Of a stretch of DNA of 48,538 nucleotides, positions 2,013 to 19,846 are shown in pieces. The stretch is taken from contig JASHSJ010000018.1 in NCBI GenBank assembly GCA_030040895.1, forward strand, positions 1 to 48,538, in the 5' to 3' direction. This DNA comes from Microcaldota archaeon (GTDB lineage Archaea > Micrarchaeota > Micrarchaeia > Micrarchaeales > Micrarchaeaceae). Position numbers and translations under genes: made by a program. The first letter of the stretch is position 1. Each line of letters starts with the position of its first letter. The notes under the pieces are model-generated. The model was not told the origin of the DNA. It worked only from the letters and a program-made list of their open reading frames with translations, and ran no database searches.

Positions 2013-5000
2013 TCAGCTTGAGCACGATGCCGATGACTGCGTTATCCAGCCGCAGCCCGTTTCCTTTGAACAGTAGTTCTGCCCCTCATCCGTGTTATTG
2101 ACGGCTCCGCTCGACTTTGTGCTGCACAGCATTCCGTAGGTTAGGCCTCCGAACCTGTTTCCCTGGAACAGGTTCTGCGTGGAATTTGAAAGGAAGATGC
2201 CGACGCCGCTGGATGCAGATGCTATGTTGTTGTCGAACTGAAGGCCTACGCTGTTTGTTACATAATACGCGGTTCCGCTCGATGACACGTTGTTGTATTC
2301 CAGGGTGCCGGTTTTCATCCCGGTCAGGCTTATGCCCTCTCCGGCGGTCGCTATGCTGAGCGAGTTTAGCATGGCGTCGCTTCCCCCGCTCATGGTTACT
2401 GCTGGGAAGGCGGCGGTAGACGCATTCTGGTATATTGTGTCATTGTACAGCGTGACGCCGCCCAACTCTGACATAACTGGCTGCGTGAAGCCCTCAAGGT
2501 AGCAGTTCTCAAGCGTTGATCCCTGGGACCTTACAAAATTTGCGAAAGTGCCGCCGTTTAACGCTGCTATAGTGTGTCCTTCGCAGTTTATGGTAGTGGT
2601 ATTAGCGTATATGCTGTAGCAGATCGCGCCAGTGGAATAAAATCCATCAGTCTGTATTACATATGTGGATGCGCCAGTGGCAACCGGGCACTGTATTGGT
2701 GCGGCGCCGGGCAGCACTACCACCATCCAGTTGCAGCCATCCTTCTTTCCTCCGTAGTTTATTATCCCGTATTCAGAGCCGAGCGCCGAATCCTGGGCGT
2801 CGCAGGCGTAGTCGGCCTGCGCGCTGCCGGTGAAGTTGTTGTACTGGACCGTATTATTGAAAGATTTCTGTTCTATCATTATCCCGACGTGGTTTGCTAT
2901 GCCCCTGTTATAGGTTATCTCGTTGTTCTTTGATGCTGAGCTGACCAGTATTCCGGTGTTTGGCCCTCCGCCGCTCACGTTGTTGCGCGTTATTATGTTA
3001 TGCGATGAGTTGTACATAGCTATGCTCACGTTCGACGCAGTGGTGAACATGGCGTTTTGGACCGTGCTGAGCATTACGTTCCTGAGCGTTATGCCGTATT
3101 CCACTGCCCCGTAGCCGGTGCTGTTCATGATGTTTATGTCGTAAGCATTCGAAACGTTTATCGCATATTGGAATCCGGATGCCCTGCAGTTGTTCAGGGT
3201 TACATTTGTCACGTTCTGCAGCAGGAACGCCGGTCCCGCTCCGGTTCCACCCGATGATGCAACTGTCCTCGACCCGCAGTTTAGCACTACGTCGCTAGTC
3301 TCCACGTCTATGCAGTCGTCCTGGTCTGTCACTATGCTCTGCGAAAGGAAGTATGAGCCTGGTTTGACTATCCTTATGCACGAAAACACCTGTATGGAGT
3401 TTGTTGTGGCGTTGGCTGTGCGGCGTGCGCACGTGGCCCAGGCTGTATTCGTAAGCCCGCACGAGGTTAGCAGCATGAGATTGGTGTTTTGTCCGGCGGA
3501 ATCTGGAGTTGCATAAACATCGTAGTTGGTATTGTTCCTCGATATGCCGGAGCTGAAGATATTTGATTCCGATTGGGTCAGATAAACGCCGTAGAGATTG
3601 TACAGCATGTGCATGTTGTATACCTGGGAGCTTGATGTATTCGTGAGGTAGAGCCCGTAGCTGCTGTTCGTGGAGCTCGCGTTCTGAAGGATGGTACCTG
3701 CGCTGCCGTTCAGGAATATAGCATACGTGTCGTTGTTGCCGGATTGGCTTACAAGCTTGTTCTGGGCAGAGTCCTTTACTGCAATTCCTATTATAGACGA
3801 GTCAACCGTGCAGTTGCGCACGGTGACATTGGGGGCGTGCACCAGTATGCCCTCAAATGCCGATGATATGGTATAGCCAGTGCAGCTGAGCGTCACGCTG
3901 GGCGCCATTATGCTTATGCAGGGTATGTTATACTGCTCCTGCAGCTGCTGGGATATCCCGAGATACGTGCTAGGGCTTATGTCGCTGGACAGCGCATAGG
4001 TGCCCGGACTCCTTATCGTTCCACAGCTGTTTATCGAAGGGCCTAGCACTGTCTGAGATATGTTGGCCGGTATGTTGGCGCCAACACAGGTGAGGAAGCT
4101 GCAGCCGCTCTGGTTGTAGCAGATGTTGCCCTGCGCGTAGCTGCTGAACTTGTATCCGCTGCCTGGCCCGCATACAAACGACAGCTGCGATCCGGCGACA
4201 TAGTTGTCTATGAACTGGTTGTTGGATGCGCTGACGTTGAATCCTATTACGTAATCCTGTATCAGCGTGTTGTTCCTGAACACTATGCTTGAATTCTGGC
4301 CTGTAACATAAACTGCACCGTATGGGCTGGCTGAGCTGCTGAGGAGATTATCGGCAACGTTTCCGGTACTGTTGTCAAGATTTATGTTTGAGATGTAGTT
4401 GGTGCTTATGTTGCTGTTCAGTATGCTGAGATCCTGTACCCTGTACGCGTATACGCCGTACGAGAAGTTTGATATGGTGCAGCCCTGCACGCTGAAGTTG
4501 CTCTGGTTGGCGACAAATATCCCATAGCTGAATGGAGGAATGCCTGTATATGGGCCAGATCCCTGTATGGTGTTGGTGCCGCACATTATGCTGACATCTG
4601 GAGACGCGACTGCTATGCAGGGTGCGGCAGTGTTTGACGTCTTCACATTCTCGCTGAGATAGTACGTGCCTGGGCTGGTTATCGACTGGCAGCTGGAAAG
4701 GTATGCTGCTGATACCTTTGAAGCAGTAGTTGTGGATTGCGGAGTGTTGCTTGGCGTTGGGATTATGTGTGCAAAATACGAATATGCAAGTATCCCTACT
4801 ATAAGCACCGCAATAACGCCAACAAGTATAAACTTGCGCCTGCTTGAGGAAAACTCGACTTTTGGAGTGTAGATTATGGATGGAGTAGGTTGGGACTTTG
4901 GGGGTGGAGGTGTGGGAGTAGGTTGGGGAGCGGGCTGCTCAGTAGGCGGTGAAGTAGGCTGGGGCGGTGGGGATGGAGCACCGGGCTGCGGTTGCGGTGC

Positions 5001-5096
5001 GGGGGATGTAGGCTGGGTTGGAATATATGGCTGCACCGGCTGTTGCGGCTGCTGGGCCGGTTGGCTCTGTCCAGTAGGATCTGACTGTCCCATCAT
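2013..5096 (-). CDS. membrane-anchored surface protein with parallel beta-helix (NosD/CASH-like) repeats and Pro-rich N-terminal segment
   Basis: Repeated motifs such as 'N.ISTNYISNINLDNST..', 'GILVSSASKNNEITYN', 'SSGVGIFLSNSTQNLFQGNRF'; Pro/Gln-rich tail then TM 'KFILVGVIAVLIVGILAYSYFA'. ORF track starts at 5117, but a TATA-like TTTAAATA lies at about 5119-5127, so the start is more likely MMGQSD (5096/5093). Confidence 0.8.
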   Translation of the reverse strand: MMGQSDPTGQSQPAQQPQQPVQPYIPTQPTSPAPQPQPGAPSPPPQPTSPPTEQPAPQPTPTPPPPKSQPTPSIIYTPKVEFSSSRRKFILVGVIAVLIVGILAYSYFAHIIPTPSNTPQSTTTASKVSAAYLSSCQSITSPGTYYLSENVKTSNTAAPCIAVASPDVSIMCGTNTIQGSGPYTGIPPFSYGIFVANQSNFSVQGCTISNFSYGVYAYRVQDLSILNSNISTNYISNINLDNSTGNVADNLLSSSASPYGAVYVTGQNSSIVFRNNTLIQDYVIGFNVSASNNQFIDNYVAGSQLSFVCGPGSGYKFSSYAQGNICYNQSGCSFLTCVGANIPANISQTVLGPSINSCGTIRSPGTYALSSDISPSTYLGISQQLQEQYNIPCISIMAPSVTLSCTGYTISSAFEGILVHAPNVTVRNCTVDSSIIGIAVKDSAQNKLVSQSGNNDTYAIFLNGSAGTILQNASSTNSSYGLYLTNTSSSQVYNMHMLYNLYGVYLTQSESNIFSSGISRNNTNYDVYATPDSAGQNTNLMLLTSCGLTNTAWATCARRTANATTNSIQVFSCIRIVKPGSYFLSQSIVTDQDDCIDVETSDVVLNCGSRTVASSGGTGAGPAFLLQNVTNVTLNNCRASGFQYAINVSNAYDINIMNSTGYGAVEYGITLRNVMLSTVQNAMFTTASNVSIAMYNSSHNIITRNNVSGGGPNTGILVSSASKNNEITYNRGIANHVGIMIEQKSFNNTVQYNNFTGSAQADYACDAQDSALGSEYGIINYGGKKDGCNWMVVVLPGAAPIQCPVATGASTYVIQTDGFYSTGAICYSIYANTTTINCEGHTIAALNGGTFANFVRSQGSTLENCYLEGFTQPVMSELGGVTLYNDTIYQNASTAAFPAVTMSGGSDAMLNSLSIATAGEGISLTGMKTGTLEYNNVSSSGTAYYVTNSVGLQFDNNIASASSGVGIFLSNSTQNLFQGNRFGGLTYGMLCSTKSSGAVNNTDEGQNYCSKETGCGWITQSSASCSS

Positions 5097-5172
5097 GAAG
5101 AAGCATATGTCAGCCAATATTTAAAAACCATACAAAGAAACCTTATTTAAAAGAAAAAGCAATAACATATGG

Positions 5173-5247
5173 GCCCGGGTAGCTCAGTCTGGTAGTAGCG
5201 CTTGTCTCGTAAACAAGAGGCCGAGGGTTCAAATCCCTCTCCGGGCT
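5173..5247 (+). tRNA. tRNA-Thr (anticodon CGT)
   Basis: Acceptor GCCCGGG/TCCGGGC with discriminator T; anticodon arm CTTGT-CTCGTAA-ACAAG; T arm GAGGG-TTCAAAT-CCCTC. Confidence 0.96.
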
Positions 5248-5250
5248 TAT

Positions 5251-6855
5251 TTATTTTCCAGAAACCGACCATAGTCCTACTTCGGGATTGCTATAGTTTG
5301 CGATGTTTGATATGGTGCAGTTGCTCCCAAGCCAGTTCTCCGTTAGCACTGTCGTGTTCGTCACGTTACCCTTGTAAAGCGTTATCAAATATTGGCCGGG
5401 GATCGACCCGTCGCAATGATTTCCTTCCGTATAATTCACTGTGATGCTGCTGTTGTATCCGGTTAGAAATTGTAGATATGTTTCAACCGTAGGAACCCCG
5501 TATTCATAGAGCAGCAGGCTTATCGGAAGCGGATCAGCCACCCATACACGTGCAGGATGGACAGCGCTGCCGGCCGTGACGTTGCCCATAACCTCAGAAA
5601 AGACTTTCGTTGCTGAATAGATGGATGCGTTGTACTGATAAAGTGTTAGCATCACTGATGCATTGAAACCTAGCGTTATGATGATGAACACGCAGAGCAC
5701 CATCATTCCAATCCTATCAGAGAAGACGATTGTGAATGCATGAGAAATGTCAGAGACAGCAAATGCGGCTAGTATGGAGAGCGGAGCAGCAACCACCATG
5801 AGGTATCTTGTCACAACCGTGGCTGTCGAGTAGCTGGAAAGTGATATCGTACCGAAGAACAGATAGAGCATGAAGCCGATGCCTATTATGGCGTTCATCA
5901 TTGCTGGTCTGTCGCGCTTCTTAAATCCTATAATCAGGCCCGCTATTGCCCAGAGTGCCATAGGTCCGATCGGAGGCACCTCCCCCCCTGTTACAGAAGT
6001 GGCGGTATGGCCTATGCCAGGCAGCCCGTAGCCATATGTTATAGATATGAATTCTACGATATTATACAAAATTCCCACTGTGCCTGAGCTCTGGAACTGC
6101 GAGTAATGGAGTAGATAAAGCGGACTGCCGCTCTGCCAATAGAATATCAGCAGGTAGATGATGGCCATGACAAAAATTCCAGAAATAAAGAACAGTGCAC
6201 TTGCCCTGGAAAGCCTAAGCATGGCATGTACTTCTTTCTTTGGAGACTCTGCACTGAACGAAAGGAATATGACTGCACACGCAAAGAAGAAAACAAAAAG
6301 CACGGAAAGCAGCTGGGCATAGACAGCCAACATGGAAACTGCACCAGCCACAAAGTAGAGCATAGGTTTCTGTTTTTGAGATTGCGCATTTGCAACGAAA
6401 ATGTATATTGAAAAACATGCAATAGCCCCTTGCAGCATGTCTGGAACCACCCTTGTTGCGTATGCAACTATGAAAGGCGCTGAAGCCACGAACAATAGTG
6501 ATATGGTAGCGAGCTTCGTATCGTACAATTTCTTTGCAATAAGGAAAGTAAATGCCATTATGGCAACATATTCGATGATGCCTGGAAGCGACGCCGAATA
6601 TATGTTGGCTCCAAATGCAAGGAATGAAAAGGCAATTGTGAGCGGGAACAGGAAACCGTAGGTGTATGTGGACTGGGTAAGATGGAAGGTCCCAATAAGG
6701 ATTTCATGGGCATATGCAAGGTATGCGACATCATCATACCCCACAAATGGGCCTGAGTACATGAGCAGTGCGAGCACTAAGCCACAAAGAATAATGAGAA
6801 CCGGCAATAGGACAGCGTTGCCACCGGTTTTTTTATCCTTCAACATATAAAGCAT
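5251..6855 (-). CDS. polytopic membrane protein, GT39/ArnT-like glycosyltransferase family (paralogue 1)
   Basis: Many TM segments, N-terminal lumenal-loop acidic motif 'GPFVGYDDVAYLAYAHEIL'; strongly similar to the protein at 7423-9018. Confidence 0.75.
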   Translation of the reverse strand: MLYMLKDKKTGGNAVLLPVLIILCGLVLALLMYSGPFVGYDDVAYLAYAHEILIGTFHLTQSTYTYGFLFPLTIAFSFLAFGANIYSASLPGIIEYVAIMAFTFLIAKKLYDTKLATISLLFVASAPFIVAYATRVVPDMLQGAIACFSIYIFVANAQSQKQKPMLYFVAGAVSMLAVYAQLLSVLFVFFFACAVIFLSFSAESPKKEVHAMLRLSRASALFFISGIFVMAIIYLLIFYWQSGSPLYLLHYSQFQSSGTVGILYNIVEFISITYGYGLPGIGHTATSVTGGEVPPIGPMALWAIAGLIIGFKKRDRPAMMNAIIGIGFMLYLFFGTISLSSYSTATVVTRYLMVVAAPLSILAAFAVSDISHAFTIVFSDRIGMMVLCVFIIITLGFNASVMLTLYQYNASIYSATKVFSEVMGNVTAGSAVHPARVWVADPLPISLLLYEYGVPTVETYLQFLTGYNSSITVNYTEGNHCDGSIPGQYLITLYKGNVTNTTVLTENWLGSNCTISNIANYSNPEVGLWSVSGK

Positions 6856-15578: not shown

Positions 15579-16529
15579 TTGCTGTGTGGCGACTTGATGC
15601 TTTCAGCTGGCGGCGGTCTCGGCATTTCACTTGACAAGAAGGAGAGCGGAGCCAGCATAGATTTCGTATCCCATGCTCATTCTGACCATATAGCTGCGGC
15701 AAAATCCTCAAAGAGGATGCTTGCAAGCGAAGTCACAAAGGAGCTCCTGGAAGAGCTCAGGGACATAGAGCCTCAGGAAGGCTTTGAAGTTCCAAGCAAT
15801 ATCAAGATGATAAACGCAGGCCACATCCTCGGATCGAAACAGTTGGTGGTAACAAACTCGGAAACCGGAACTAAGACTGTATATACTGGAGACTATCAAA
15901 TGCAGAAATCTAGGACCTGCGATAGCGTAGAGATAGAGAGAGCAGATGTCGCTATAGTGGATTCGACGTACTTCCACCGGAACCTCAAATTTGATGAAAG
16001 ATCAGAGGTTGAGAGCGCGATGCAGGCGTGGACCGAGAGCAAGCTCAACTCCGGCATAGTGCTGTTTGGCGTGTACGCACTGGGAAAGGCGCAGGAAGTC
16101 ATATCAATACTTAACGAGAAAGGAATCCTGCCGATAGTCAGCAAGAAGATAAGCGGGATAAATAAAATATATACAAAAAATGGGGTGCGGCTGGACTACG
16201 CATCAGTCTATGATGAAGGAAACGATTATCAGGCTCTGCTAAGGGGGAATTTTGCGGGCATAGTGGAAAACCATCTCCTTGGCAGCATGAGAGTGGCCCT
16301 TGCAGAGCTCTACAACAGGCCAGTATATACGGCTGTTGCCACAGGATTCGCGAAGATGATCAAATTTGACGTTGATGTCCAGTTCCCCCTGAGCGACCAT
16401 GCGGATTTCATGCAGTGCATGGACTACATAGATGCAACAGCGGCCAAGAAGGTCATGACATATGGGCCCAACAGACTAGATCTTGCAGCCGAGCTGTCAA
16501 ACTCTGGATACGATGCGCTTCCTTTCTGA
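15579..16529 (+). CDS. metallo-beta-lactamase fold protein, RNA 3'-processing exonuclease-like
   Basis: DFVSHAHSDHIAA (HxHxDH), NAGHILGS, YTGDYQ, VDSTYF, PLSDHADF. Confidence 0.85.
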   Translation: MLCGDLMLSAGGGLGISLDKKESGASIDFVSHAHSDHIAAAKSSKRMLASEVTKELLEELRDIEPQEGFEVPSNIKMINAGHILGSKQLVVTNSETGTKTVYTGDYQMQKSRTCDSVEIERADVAIVDSTYFHRNLKFDERSEVESAMQAWTESKLNSGIVLFGVYALGKAQEVISILNEKGILPIVSKKISGINKIYTKNGVRLDYASVYDEGNDYQALLRGNFAGIVENHLLGSMRVALAELYNRPVYTAVATGFAKMIKFDVDVQFPLSDHADFMQCMDYIDATAAKKVMTYGPNRLDLAAELSNSGYDALPF

Positions 16530-17189
16530 TCAGGCTGCGCTTATTGCGGCCAGCAATGATGTATTTCTGAGCAGCGTCTCGCGAGTCGGAACCCCCAGGG
16601 CCTCTCTTGCCCCTCTTGGCAGCACTGCCAAGCTGGCAGGCCGGCCTTTGGCAATAGTTATTGCTGCGCTTATAACTATTCCGGGGTTTCTGCATATAAA
16701 AAGAGGTTGGTGCTGTGGCACGAGCCTGAGCAGTTTTCTTACCTTGGCCCCTTCCGTTTCAGAAAGCCCAAGGGAATCTGAATGACGCTCGAACAATGGC
16801 ATTGGATCTGGCATGCCGAGTGTAGCTTGGATTGTCTTCACCCTCCTATGAAGTAAGGAAAACTCGCGCTCGTTTCCGCCCAACTTTTGTGCAACTTGAG
16901 CAAGTTTCTCCCTGTCTACGCCAAGTTCTACGCAAGCCGAATAGATAAAACACCTTGCTGTAAAGTCGATACCGCGATTATTGGGACTCTTTATCCTGCT
17001 CATCGAATACGCAAACTCGCAGGAAGTGTCCTTTACCCTTTCCAGCATATTTGGACTAAAATCCAGCTGCGCTGCAACCCCAGCTATTACTGGGCGGATG
17101 TCAGAAAGAAACTTCACTTGTTTTTGTGAAGTCGTTATGGTACTGAAATCTATCTTGCCTAGCTTCTCCATAACAAACGGTTTGGGCAA
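16530..17189 (-). CDS. divergent TFB-like cyclin-repeat protein without zinc ribbon (copy A)
   Basis: 'DFTARCFIYSACVELGVDREKLAQVAQKLGGNEREFSLLHRRVKTIQATLGMPDPMPLFERHSDSLGLSE...PGIVISAAITIAKG' follows the TFB cyclin-repeat pattern. Confidence 0.6.
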   Translation of the reverse strand: MPKPFVMEKLGKIDFSTITTSQKQVKFLSDIRPVIAGVAAQLDFSPNMLERVKDTSCEFAYSMSRIKSPNNRGIDFTARCFIYSACVELGVDREKLAQVAQKLGGNEREFSLLHRRVKTIQATLGMPDPMPLFERHSDSLGLSETEGAKVRKLLRLVPQHQPLFICRNPGIVISAAITIAKGRPASLAVLPRGAREALGVPTRETLLRNTSLLAAISAA

Positions 17190-17212
17190 TTCTGATATTT
17201 AATAATATGGGG

Positions 17213-17875
17213 TTATTGCGGACTTATCTTTCTCAGTAACTTGCCTATGTTATGGATGGATGCATGATTATCCATGTCGTGAATCGCTTCATGGTATCTC
17301 TTCATGCCAGGATTCTTGCCTGTCGTGTCTTCCTCGGCAATGTGCAAAGCGGCAAGCACAACTTTGACGGGGTCTTTGCGCAGGAATAGAAAAGAATGGG
17401 AAGTGACTGTATCAAGAATCTGCTTGGCCCTGCCTTCGGCTTGGGGGGAAACTCCGACCCTGCCGGCATAGTCGTGTAGAAGTGGCAGCGGATCTGGCAT
17501 TTCAAGTCTCTTCTGCAATGCCTTTACCTGCCTGTGGCTCATCTCTAGTATCTTTCGGTTGGCACCAAGGCTCTCTGCCACGTCATCTAGATCACGTCCG
17601 CTTATCCCGCTCTCGATGCACGCAGAGAAAACGCATGTCTTGAAAATGAAGTTTTGGTCTCTCCTGCGAAATGCGCGATTGCATTTCACAGCCTGATATA
17701 TCTCGAATGAAAGCGCGCTTATGGAATCCGTTGTCCTATCATCAAGGAATAGGCGACCGACATGGAATCTCAGTTCCTCCTCTGCAGCACGTAACTGGGC
17801 TTCTTTGCTCGGCTTGGCCGGCAATGGGCCCAAATTATGAATACTGACTTTCTGTGAAGTTAACATGCCAGTCAT
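17213..17875 (-). CDS. divergent TFB-like cyclin-repeat protein without zinc ribbon (copy B)
   Basis: 'KTCVFSACIESGISGRDLDDVAESLGANRKILEMSHRQVKALQKRLEMPDPLPLLHDYAGRVGVS...DPVKVVLAALHIAEED', paralogous to the adjacent gene. Confidence 0.6.
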   Translation of the reverse strand: MTGMLTSQKVSIHNLGPLPAKPSKEAQLRAAEEELRFHVGRLFLDDRTTDSISALSFEIYQAVKCNRAFRRRDQNFIFKTCVFSACIESGISGRDLDDVAESLGANRKILEMSHRQVKALQKRLEMPDPLPLLHDYAGRVGVSPQAEGRAKQILDTVTSHSFLFLRKDPVKVVLAALHIAEEDTTGKNPGMKRYHEAIHDMDNHASIHNIGKLLRKISPQ

Positions 17876-18010
17876 GCATTTTTTTCATATTTAAGACTAT
17901 TGTAGGGGTTCGATGCCTGTAAGTGAAATACTTGCATGGGCAGACATGCATCGGCGAAACGAAAGGATAGAAATCGATTTAAGCTGTTTCCACGATATTG
18001 TATAGGTAGT

Positions 18011-18580
18011 ATGATAGAGAAAGACAACCCGGAGATACCTGCGTGGATGGTAGCGCAGGCACTTATAATAAAAGTAAAAAATGTGCTAATAGAAGAGGCT
18101 GTAAACCTTCTCTACAGGGAGATAGAGGAGAAAAGGATGGCGGTGAAGGGCAAGTTCGTGAAGATGTCGGACACTGACGGCGAGATGGAGCAGGGAATGT
18201 TCCTCATAAGAAACCTGATGAATCAGAAGGATGAGATTTTGGACCAGTTCCTGAGGTACATAGAGACCCACAAGGAGGAGGCGAAGAGCAATGCGGTAGA
18301 GGCAAGCAAGATAAGAGACGCAAGAAAGTTCATAGACGCCGTTGATTCGATAACGGCCATGGCCAGGGCCAGCATGATATTCGATGCGTGGTTCAATGGG
18401 GTCAGCATGCAGATACATGAAAAAGATCCGGCTGCGATACTGGCAGGCACAGCAAAAGAGGATAATGATAGGAGAGATGCGTTGAGCTTTCTTGTCACAA
18501 ACCAGATATTCAAGTCTGCAGAACTCTTCACAAAGGATGAGAGGGCAGTGCTGACAAAGACCCATGAACTTCTGAAATAA
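18011..18580 (+). CDS. hypothetical helical protein
   Basis: 189 aa from ATG at 18011 (preceded by GGTAGT); an upstream in-frame ATG at 17936 is less likely. Confidence 0.65.
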   Translation: MIEKDNPEIPAWMVAQALIIKVKNVLIEEAVNLLYREIEEKRMAVKGKFVKMSDTDGEMEQGMFLIRNLMNQKDEILDQFLRYIETHKEEAKSNAVEASKIRDARKFIDAVDSITAMARASMIFDAWFNGVSMQIHEKDPAAILAGTAKEDNDRRDALSFLVTNQIFKSAELFTKDERAVLTKTHELLK

Positions 18581-18640: not shown

Positions 18641-19846
18641 GTGTCAATCTTCGGAAGGCCGGAACCAAAAGAGGAAATTGGTACAGCGGAGCTTGAGCTC
18701 CGCCTAAACGCATGCTTTGACAAGAAAGTCCAAAAGCTGTCGGCAAAAACCACAGTTATGGAGAGGGAATTGGCGCAGGCCCTTTCAGCATTTGGAAGTG
18801 CTATACAAAAGGCATCAAAGTCTGACTTCAAGCCCAATATGGACTATCTGTATCGCATAAACGATGCAAATGTAAGGACCCAGAAGCAGAGCTACACCGC
18901 TTCAATACTAAGGATAATATCAGCAAAACTAGCCATCAGTAACACGAATGCCTACTATGCAGCAGAAAGCATTGCCAATTCCTATGAAGACCTTATTATG
19001 AAAGTCATGAGCACGAATAGCACATTCAAGCCCGTGCTGCTCGCCTACGCCAATGAGCTTGCAAGCGCAAAAACACACTTCAATGCCATGGAGCGCATGT
19101 GCAAGGAACTTCGCGATGAACTTGCAGCGTGCACTCAGCAGTTCGACGAATACAAGGAAATAGAAAAAAAGGTAGCAGAAATGCTAGAGATCATGTCAAA
19201 AATCGATTTCTTGAAACTGCTACAGCCGGGCAAAGCAAAAACGATGCCGCATGAGGACGCGGCAGACCGGCAAATTGCAGCCATGGTAAGCGAAAGGGAA
19301 AAAGAATTTGAATCTGTCAGAAAACTCTATGATGACACAAATATGGTTCTGGCTGGCATGCTCCTTCCCATCGAGAGAATAGCGAGGATGCACGATCACG
19401 CGTCAGCATCAAAAAGGAAGATAATCCCGTATATAGAGGACCCCCGCACTGCAATAAAGAGTAAAAGCGATGAGGATGAACTTAACCGCCAAATTTCTGA
19501 AATGATAGATGAGGTCAAAACCGGAAAATTTGCTGTCAAGAGCAAAGAAGACATGATACTGCTACTTGAAGCAATAAGAAATGCGAACCTGCTTGCAATG
19601 GTGGGCCTGCTCCATCAGTGTGCCGCAGACATGCGGGCAGCAGAGGCTGACATGAAAAAGCTGAAAGCGCAGCTGCATGAGATAGAGGAAGCTAAGGACG
19701 AAGAAGAACGGATCCTGAATAGGAAAGACGAAGTAGAAAGAGCCTTACAGGATATGATAACATCAGCCCACACAAAGGGGAGCGAGATAGAGAGGCTCTT
19801 CAGTAGTTGCTACAAGAAAAACGTTGTTGTAAAGATTGACGTATAA
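18641..19846 (+). CDS. hypothetical coiled-coil protein
   Basis: GTG start; 401 aa with long heptad-like stretches (MERMCKELRDELAACTQQFDEYKEIEKKVAEMLEIM). Confidence 0.7.
   Translation: MSIFGRPEPKEEIGTAELELRLNACFDKKVQKLSAKTTVMERELAQALSAFGSAIQKASKSDFKPNMDYLYRINDANVRTQKQSYTASILRIISAKLAISNTNAYYAAESIANSYEDLIMKVMSTNSTFKPVLLAYANELASAKTHFNAMERMCKELRDELAACTQQFDEYKEIEKKVAEMLEIMSKIDFLKLLQPGKAKTMPHEDAADRQIAAMVSEREKEFESVRKLYDDTNMVLAGMLLPIERIARMHDHASASKRKIIPYIEDPRTAIKSKSDEDELNRQISEMIDEVKTGKFAVKSKEDMILLLEAIRNANLLAMVGLLHQCAADMRAAEADMKKLKAQLHEIEEAKDEEERILNRKDEVERALQDMITSAHTKGSEIERLFSSCYKKNVVVKIDV

Follow-up and report, generated by a model that had tools for sequence, protein, structure and literature searches.

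TFBc, an engineered core-only form of the archaeal initiation factor TFB, binds TBP and promoter DNA, does not recruit polymerase, inhibits transcription and serves as a laboratory block of re-initiation (PMC8448881). Sulfolobus TFB3 is a TFB paralog with a trans-regulatory role (PMC7289017) in which the zinc ribbon is kept and the B-finger, part of the core and the helix-turn-helix are absent (PMC2246294). In haloarchaea, multiple TFB homologues combine with different TBPs for promoter choice (PMC7289017). Truncated TFB paralogs known to date, TFB3 among them, retain the ribbon that binds polymerase, and a search of the open-licence literature turned up no description of Micrarchaeota TFB cores without a ribbon. 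Here, we report two adjacent genes, P0002 and P0001, whose products are almost certainly ribbon-less TFB-core paralogs, in a 48,538-nucleotide stretch (the window) of a Microcaldota archaeon (GenBank assembly GCA_030040895.1, contig JASHSJ010000018.1). Duplicates of the C-terminal TFB core, the two evolve fast and are specific to their lineage.

Both genes are on the minus strand in head-to-tail order with a 23-bp spacing, P0002 upstream (17213-17875; 220 amino acids [aa] as listed) and P0001 downstream (16530-17189; 219 aa as listed), and both frames are open and intact. The Pfam search returned no domain in P0001 or P0002. The NCBIfam TFB model matched P0002 (5e-8, residues 52-181), whose top PDB sequence match was the Pyrococcus TFB core (3e-5). 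A hidden Markov model (HMM) built solely from canonical TFBs of related genomes ranked P0002 first (30.3 bits) and P0001 second (18.3 bits) among the 204 open reading frames (ORFs) of the window, the next ORF scoring 6.3 bits; with 2000 shuffles per protein as the control, the best shuffled sequences reached 5.3 bits (P0002) and 3.2 bits (P0001). Profile-profile comparison of a pair-only profile with canonical TFB gave a match (probability 96.7%, E = 3e-10), and in the reverse test, with 295 genomes of the phylum searched, the pair-only profile found TFB-type genes in 98. E-values of P0001 and P0002 from alignment A2, which contains the window proteins, were not counted as evidence.

AlphaFold models, made with alignments that included TFBs, have ten core helices in each protein, arranged as two five-helix cyclin repeats (mean predicted local distance difference test score [pLDDT], 88.5 for P0002 and 85.2 for P0001). 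Repeat 1 of P0002 (17504-17806, minus strand; residues 24-124) is formed by helices 24-40, 46-66, 74-88, 94-103, and 107-124, and repeat 2 (17225-17488; residues 130-217) by helices 130-140, 144-159, 169-185, 190-201, and 204-217; in P0001, the repeats are placed at 16818-17126 (minus strand; residues 22-124) and 16536-16805 (residues 129-218). The best PDB fold matches of both models were TFB/TFIIB, with Pyrococcus woesei TFB (1ais_B) the top Foldseek match for each (probability, 1.00). Whole-chain template modeling (TM) scores to TFB were low (0.34-0.35; root mean square deviation, about 16 Å) with both domains aligning, probably because the two repeats are placed differently; the match is thus domain by domain. 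A preliminary description of the window had proposed a two-cyclin, TFB-derived core with no N-terminal zinc ribbon, on which HMM, AlphaFold, Foldseek, and profile-profile results agree. It had also taken the second repeat to be shortened, which is not so: alignment and models give five helices and near-normal length in both proteins, and the last helix-turn-helix is degenerate when aligned to canonical TFB (in P0001, GVPTRETLLRN versus canonical GVTEVTIRN).

The two genes are, judged from their sequences, of common origin. The shared block that had been noticed in these adjacent, co-directional ORFs is real, with 38 of 110 residues identical (35%) in a gap-free alignment (E = 1e-22); when P0002 was shuffled 2000 times, the best score against P0001 was 25.8 bits, versus 79 for the real protein. 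The tree groups the two firmly (support, 99/99) and leaves their position relative to canonical TFB, or to a ribbon-less gene in a congener (genome G005), unsettled. In the common block, synonymous differences are saturated (pS, 0.84) and nonsynonymous ones are not (pN, 0.45); the protein sequence has therefore been subject to selection ever since the genes duplicated. Repeat 1 plus the linker is the part best conserved between the copies, and 20 residues identical in P0001 and P0002 are absent from eight canonical TFBs of relatives, among them the linker MPDP-PL and the helix before it.

With canonical TFB/TFIIB, the pair share the two cyclin repeats, the D-P linker and a sequence similarity extending from repeat 1 through most of repeat 2; they differ from it in having no zinc ribbon, B-reader, or B-linker, in the degenerate last helix-turn-helix, and in an identity of 20-28%. 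No CxxC...CxxC motif occurs in P0001 or P0002, the B-reader and B-linker region is absent from both in alignment to canonical TFB, and merely about 20-25 residues precede the core. The earlier wording of "no N-terminal Cys" holds for the zinc-ribbon Cys pairs, though not for every single Cys. The closest matches to the arginyl-tRNA synthetase of the window come from Micrarchaeota archaea. The genome (764 kb in 34 contigs, 92% complete; order of "Candidatus Micrarchaeum") has one canonical tfb, on contig C33, and this gene carries the sole TFB zinc ribbon above the family cut-off, with no stand-alone ribbon above it. A split TFB with its ribbon in trans was rejected for this genome, since that sole ribbon sits in the canonical tfb. 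Alternative initiation factors are an unlikely role for the pair, because ribbon, reader, and linker are missing and no TFB ribbon above the cut-off is present elsewhere to supply one in trans. Of the three roles first suggested for the pair, alternative initiation factor falls away on these grounds, leaving antagonist or adaptor as candidates.

The real starts are probably slightly downstream of the listed ones, at ATG 17866 in P0002 (217 aa) and ATG 17171 in P0001 (213 aa). A TATA-like box, TTAAATAT (17887-17894, minus strand), is centered 24 nucleotides (nt) before the former and is a candidate leaderless promoter; a TATA-like stretch, TATTATTAAATATC (17194-17207, minus strand), centered about 29-32 nt before the latter, is a candidate promoter of P0001's own. 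Both were recognized as consensus matches, and their spacing from the two ATGs suggests separate leaderless transcripts coding for slightly shorter proteins.

In domain content (core only, no ribbon), the pair equal TFBc, from which they differ in being natural and strongly diverged; their binding to TBP-promoter complexes would be conjectural. Like Sulfolobus TFB3, they are shortened TFB paralogs beside a full TFB and possible trans-acting regulators, but as a mirror image, keeping the whole core and not the ribbon. The expansion of TFB paralogs within one genome recalls haloarchaea, although here the polymerase-recruiting half is missing.

The reading we favor, to which we give an even chance, is that P0001 and P0002 are TFB-derived accessory or antagonistic regulators and not initiation factors. 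The mechanism proposed for this role is more tentative. Unable to recruit RNA polymerase, the proteins would not act as initiation factors; they would regulate a subset of promoters in trans, in an accessory and most likely negative role, hindering or modulating canonical TFB without replacing it. Their basic cores could retain residual contact with the DNA backbone, and helix 5 of repeat 1 together with the inter-repeat linker (HR-VK--Q--L-MPDP-PL), found in both copies and not in canonical TFB, would form a partner-binding surface. DNA binding, the partner, and the sign of the effect are what we infer here.

Several observations weigh against this reading. Human TFIIB R169 is needed for TBP-TATA association, which R169E abolishes (PMC6004067), and this Arg and a neighboring Thr contact glutamates conserved in TBP (PMC7221094), the Thr of that account corresponding, by our alignment, to the position compared here. 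Eight canonical TFBs of relatives retain both residues; the Arg has become Ile in P0002 and Val in P0001, and the Thr has become Asp and Lys, respectively. At the equivalents of V283 and R286, the upstream B recognition element (BRE) residues of human TFIIB, P0002 has Ala and His and P0001 has Thr, with the Arg ambiguously placed, so that most upstream-BRE contacts of canonical TFB/TFIIB are gone. The P0002 core is less basic than canonical cores, with a net charge of +3 against about +7 to +14. Because the TBP-docking and upstream-BRE residues are altered, TBP-mediated promoter binding, the basis of TFBc-like action, may be gone. Any function is also dispensable at the genus level, since the pair is absent from nearly all congeners.

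These losses bear most directly on the first alternative, that the pair are natural equivalents of TFBc, dominant-negative competitors that take TFB's place on TBP-promoter complexes and block polymerase recruitment. Both proteins keep the full core, and both retain the equivalent of human R154, a downstream-BRE contact. The TBP-docking Arg and Thr are nonetheless replaced, though the genome's TBPs keep their acidic stirrup (YEPEQFPG), and the upstream-BRE Val is lost in both copies, with His for Arg in P0002. Simple TBP competition is not the obvious mechanism, as the canonical docking residues are mostly lost, and we regard this alternative as unlikely.

The same losses would suit two-cyclin adaptors that have been repurposed for work outside initiation, perhaps as a heterodimer, and that bind protein partners having nothing to do with TBP or promoters. 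The best-conserved part of the pair, repeat 1 and linker, with its 20 common noncanonical residues, fits such a role, as does the whole-chain TM-score of 0.35 in spite of aligned domains, given that repeat placement may differ. Against it, the neighborhood names no partner, the products of 17936-18580 and 18641-19846 being without a Pfam match, and this alternative, too, is doubtful.

The pair is convergent with a metallo-beta-lactamase-fold exonuclease-like gene (15579-16529, plus strand), which is conserved in sister genomes and anchors the locus there. Among 14 congeners, G005 is the only other one in which a ribbon-less TFB core was found; it occupies the same position, convergent with and adjoining the exonuclease-like gene, with no second core beside it. 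This gene (L033:1569-2255; 228 aa) passes the Pfam TFIIB cut-off (43.5 bits). Like the pair, it is core only, lies in the same chromosomal place and orientation, and has lost the TBP-docking Arg (now Glu, with Asp for Thr); unlike the pair, it is followed by a gene for a winged-helix protein of 560 aa, and it is 21% identical to P0002. In the approximately unbiased test (p-AU, 0.21), a single clade of P0001, P0002, and the G005 gene was neither favored nor excluded.

Delivery of a TFB-like core to a variable site in the chromosome, by a virus or another of the mobile elements of these archaea, would account for two congeners having such a core just downstream of the exonuclease gene and the others having none there, and for the saccharopine-dehydrogenase-like gene that in two other congeners (G003 and G010) follows the exonuclease gene within 14-42 bp. 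Single-sequence searches found no match in viral contigs or phages, however, the plasmid search returned ordinary haloarchaeal TFBs only, and the neighbors tested have no Pfam integrase or viral domain, so this origin is quite improbable. Decay of TFB duplicates under relaxed selection, with no present function, would fit the long branches, patchy occurrence, and weak likeness to canonical TFB but is very improbable, as neither frame is interrupted, the two folds are complete, pN is far under saturation while pS is saturated, the 20 common residues were kept after duplication, and a second species has a ribbon-less core at the same place.

Around the locus, the G005 560-aa protein (L033:2294-3976, G005:C19) combines a MarR/ArsR-type winged helix with long disordered stretches. 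It is a possible functional partner of the adjacent ribbon-less TFB gene; as a counterpart of P0001 it was rejected, having a winged-helix domain and no TFB score. In G005, the saccharopine-dehydrogenase-like gene lies just past the cassette; in G000, it is on a different contig. In the window, 17936-18580 and 18641-19846 (plus strand) are co-directional genes of no recognized family; the latter has diverged homologs (22-26% identity) at other positions in 8 of 13 congeners. No relative of the pair was found in single-sequence searches of viral contigs and genome contigs.

Of the order's 164 genomes, most carry a single TFB-type gene, and a minority have extra divergent ones, some tandem or fused and several with no or a degenerate ribbon. 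Tandem arrays adjoin the rps13-rps4-rps11 genes in G079, G090, and G105, and multi-core TFB proteins of >860 aa occur in G090 and G146. In genus g38, divergent TFB paralogs, often tandem, lie beside rps13-rps4-rps11 and lysyl-tRNA-synthetase genes (L126 [G090:C23], L127 [G090:C41], L128 [G105:C22], L034 [G079:C28], L131 [G104:C33], and L134 [G106:C11]), and one ORF of at least 1007 aa, ending at the contig end, has several TFB cores behind one zinc ribbon. The 864-aa protein of G146 (L139:4713-7307, G146:C50), from the same family as the window genome, lacks a zinc ribbon and contains several weak cyclin cores of the TFB type. At L137:3607-4398 and 4455-5681 (G112:C100), a 408-aa TFB-core protein lacking a ribbon precedes one of 263 aa whose zinc-ribbon-like CxxC...CxxC motif goes unrecognized by Pfam; together they are possibly a split TFB. 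A short TFB in G053 (186 aa) was rejected as a ribbon-less gene, being a contig-end fragment.

Across most of the order, TBP consists of one lobe (about 100-140 aa) and carries the acidic stirrup on which TFB docks (YEPEQFPG). Two such genes are present in G000 (G000:C16:5109-5354 [L222:1411-1773] and G000:C1:36187-36432 [L223:1429-1794]; relatives, L225-L235), as in nearly all family f1 genomes, and exactly one in most family f2 genomes; G022 additionally has an ordinary two-lobe TBP of 185 aa. Single-lobe archaeal TBPs receive a one-sentence mention in PMC7221094. Because these mostly single-lobe TBPs carry the TFB-docking glutamates, a TBP dimer could offer a TFB site on either side of TATA, where core-only TFB relatives would occupy or block one side, with effects on promoter direction or silencing, the pair being a diverged product of that expansion; we consider this scenario remote.

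If single-lobe TBP is indeed order-wide, the TBP-TATA complex would be symmetric or heterodimeric, and promoter direction with a symmetric TBP becomes a testable question. Core-only TFBs occurring in nature, if confirmed as such, would give a laboratory inhibitor its genetic counterpart and show one way in which archaea could regulate transcription by subverting a basal factor. TFB relatives that lack the ribbon, stand in tandem, or contain several cores recur in this order alongside a TBP that is mostly a single lobe, a pattern that points to an unusually fluid initiation machinery in these very small archaea.
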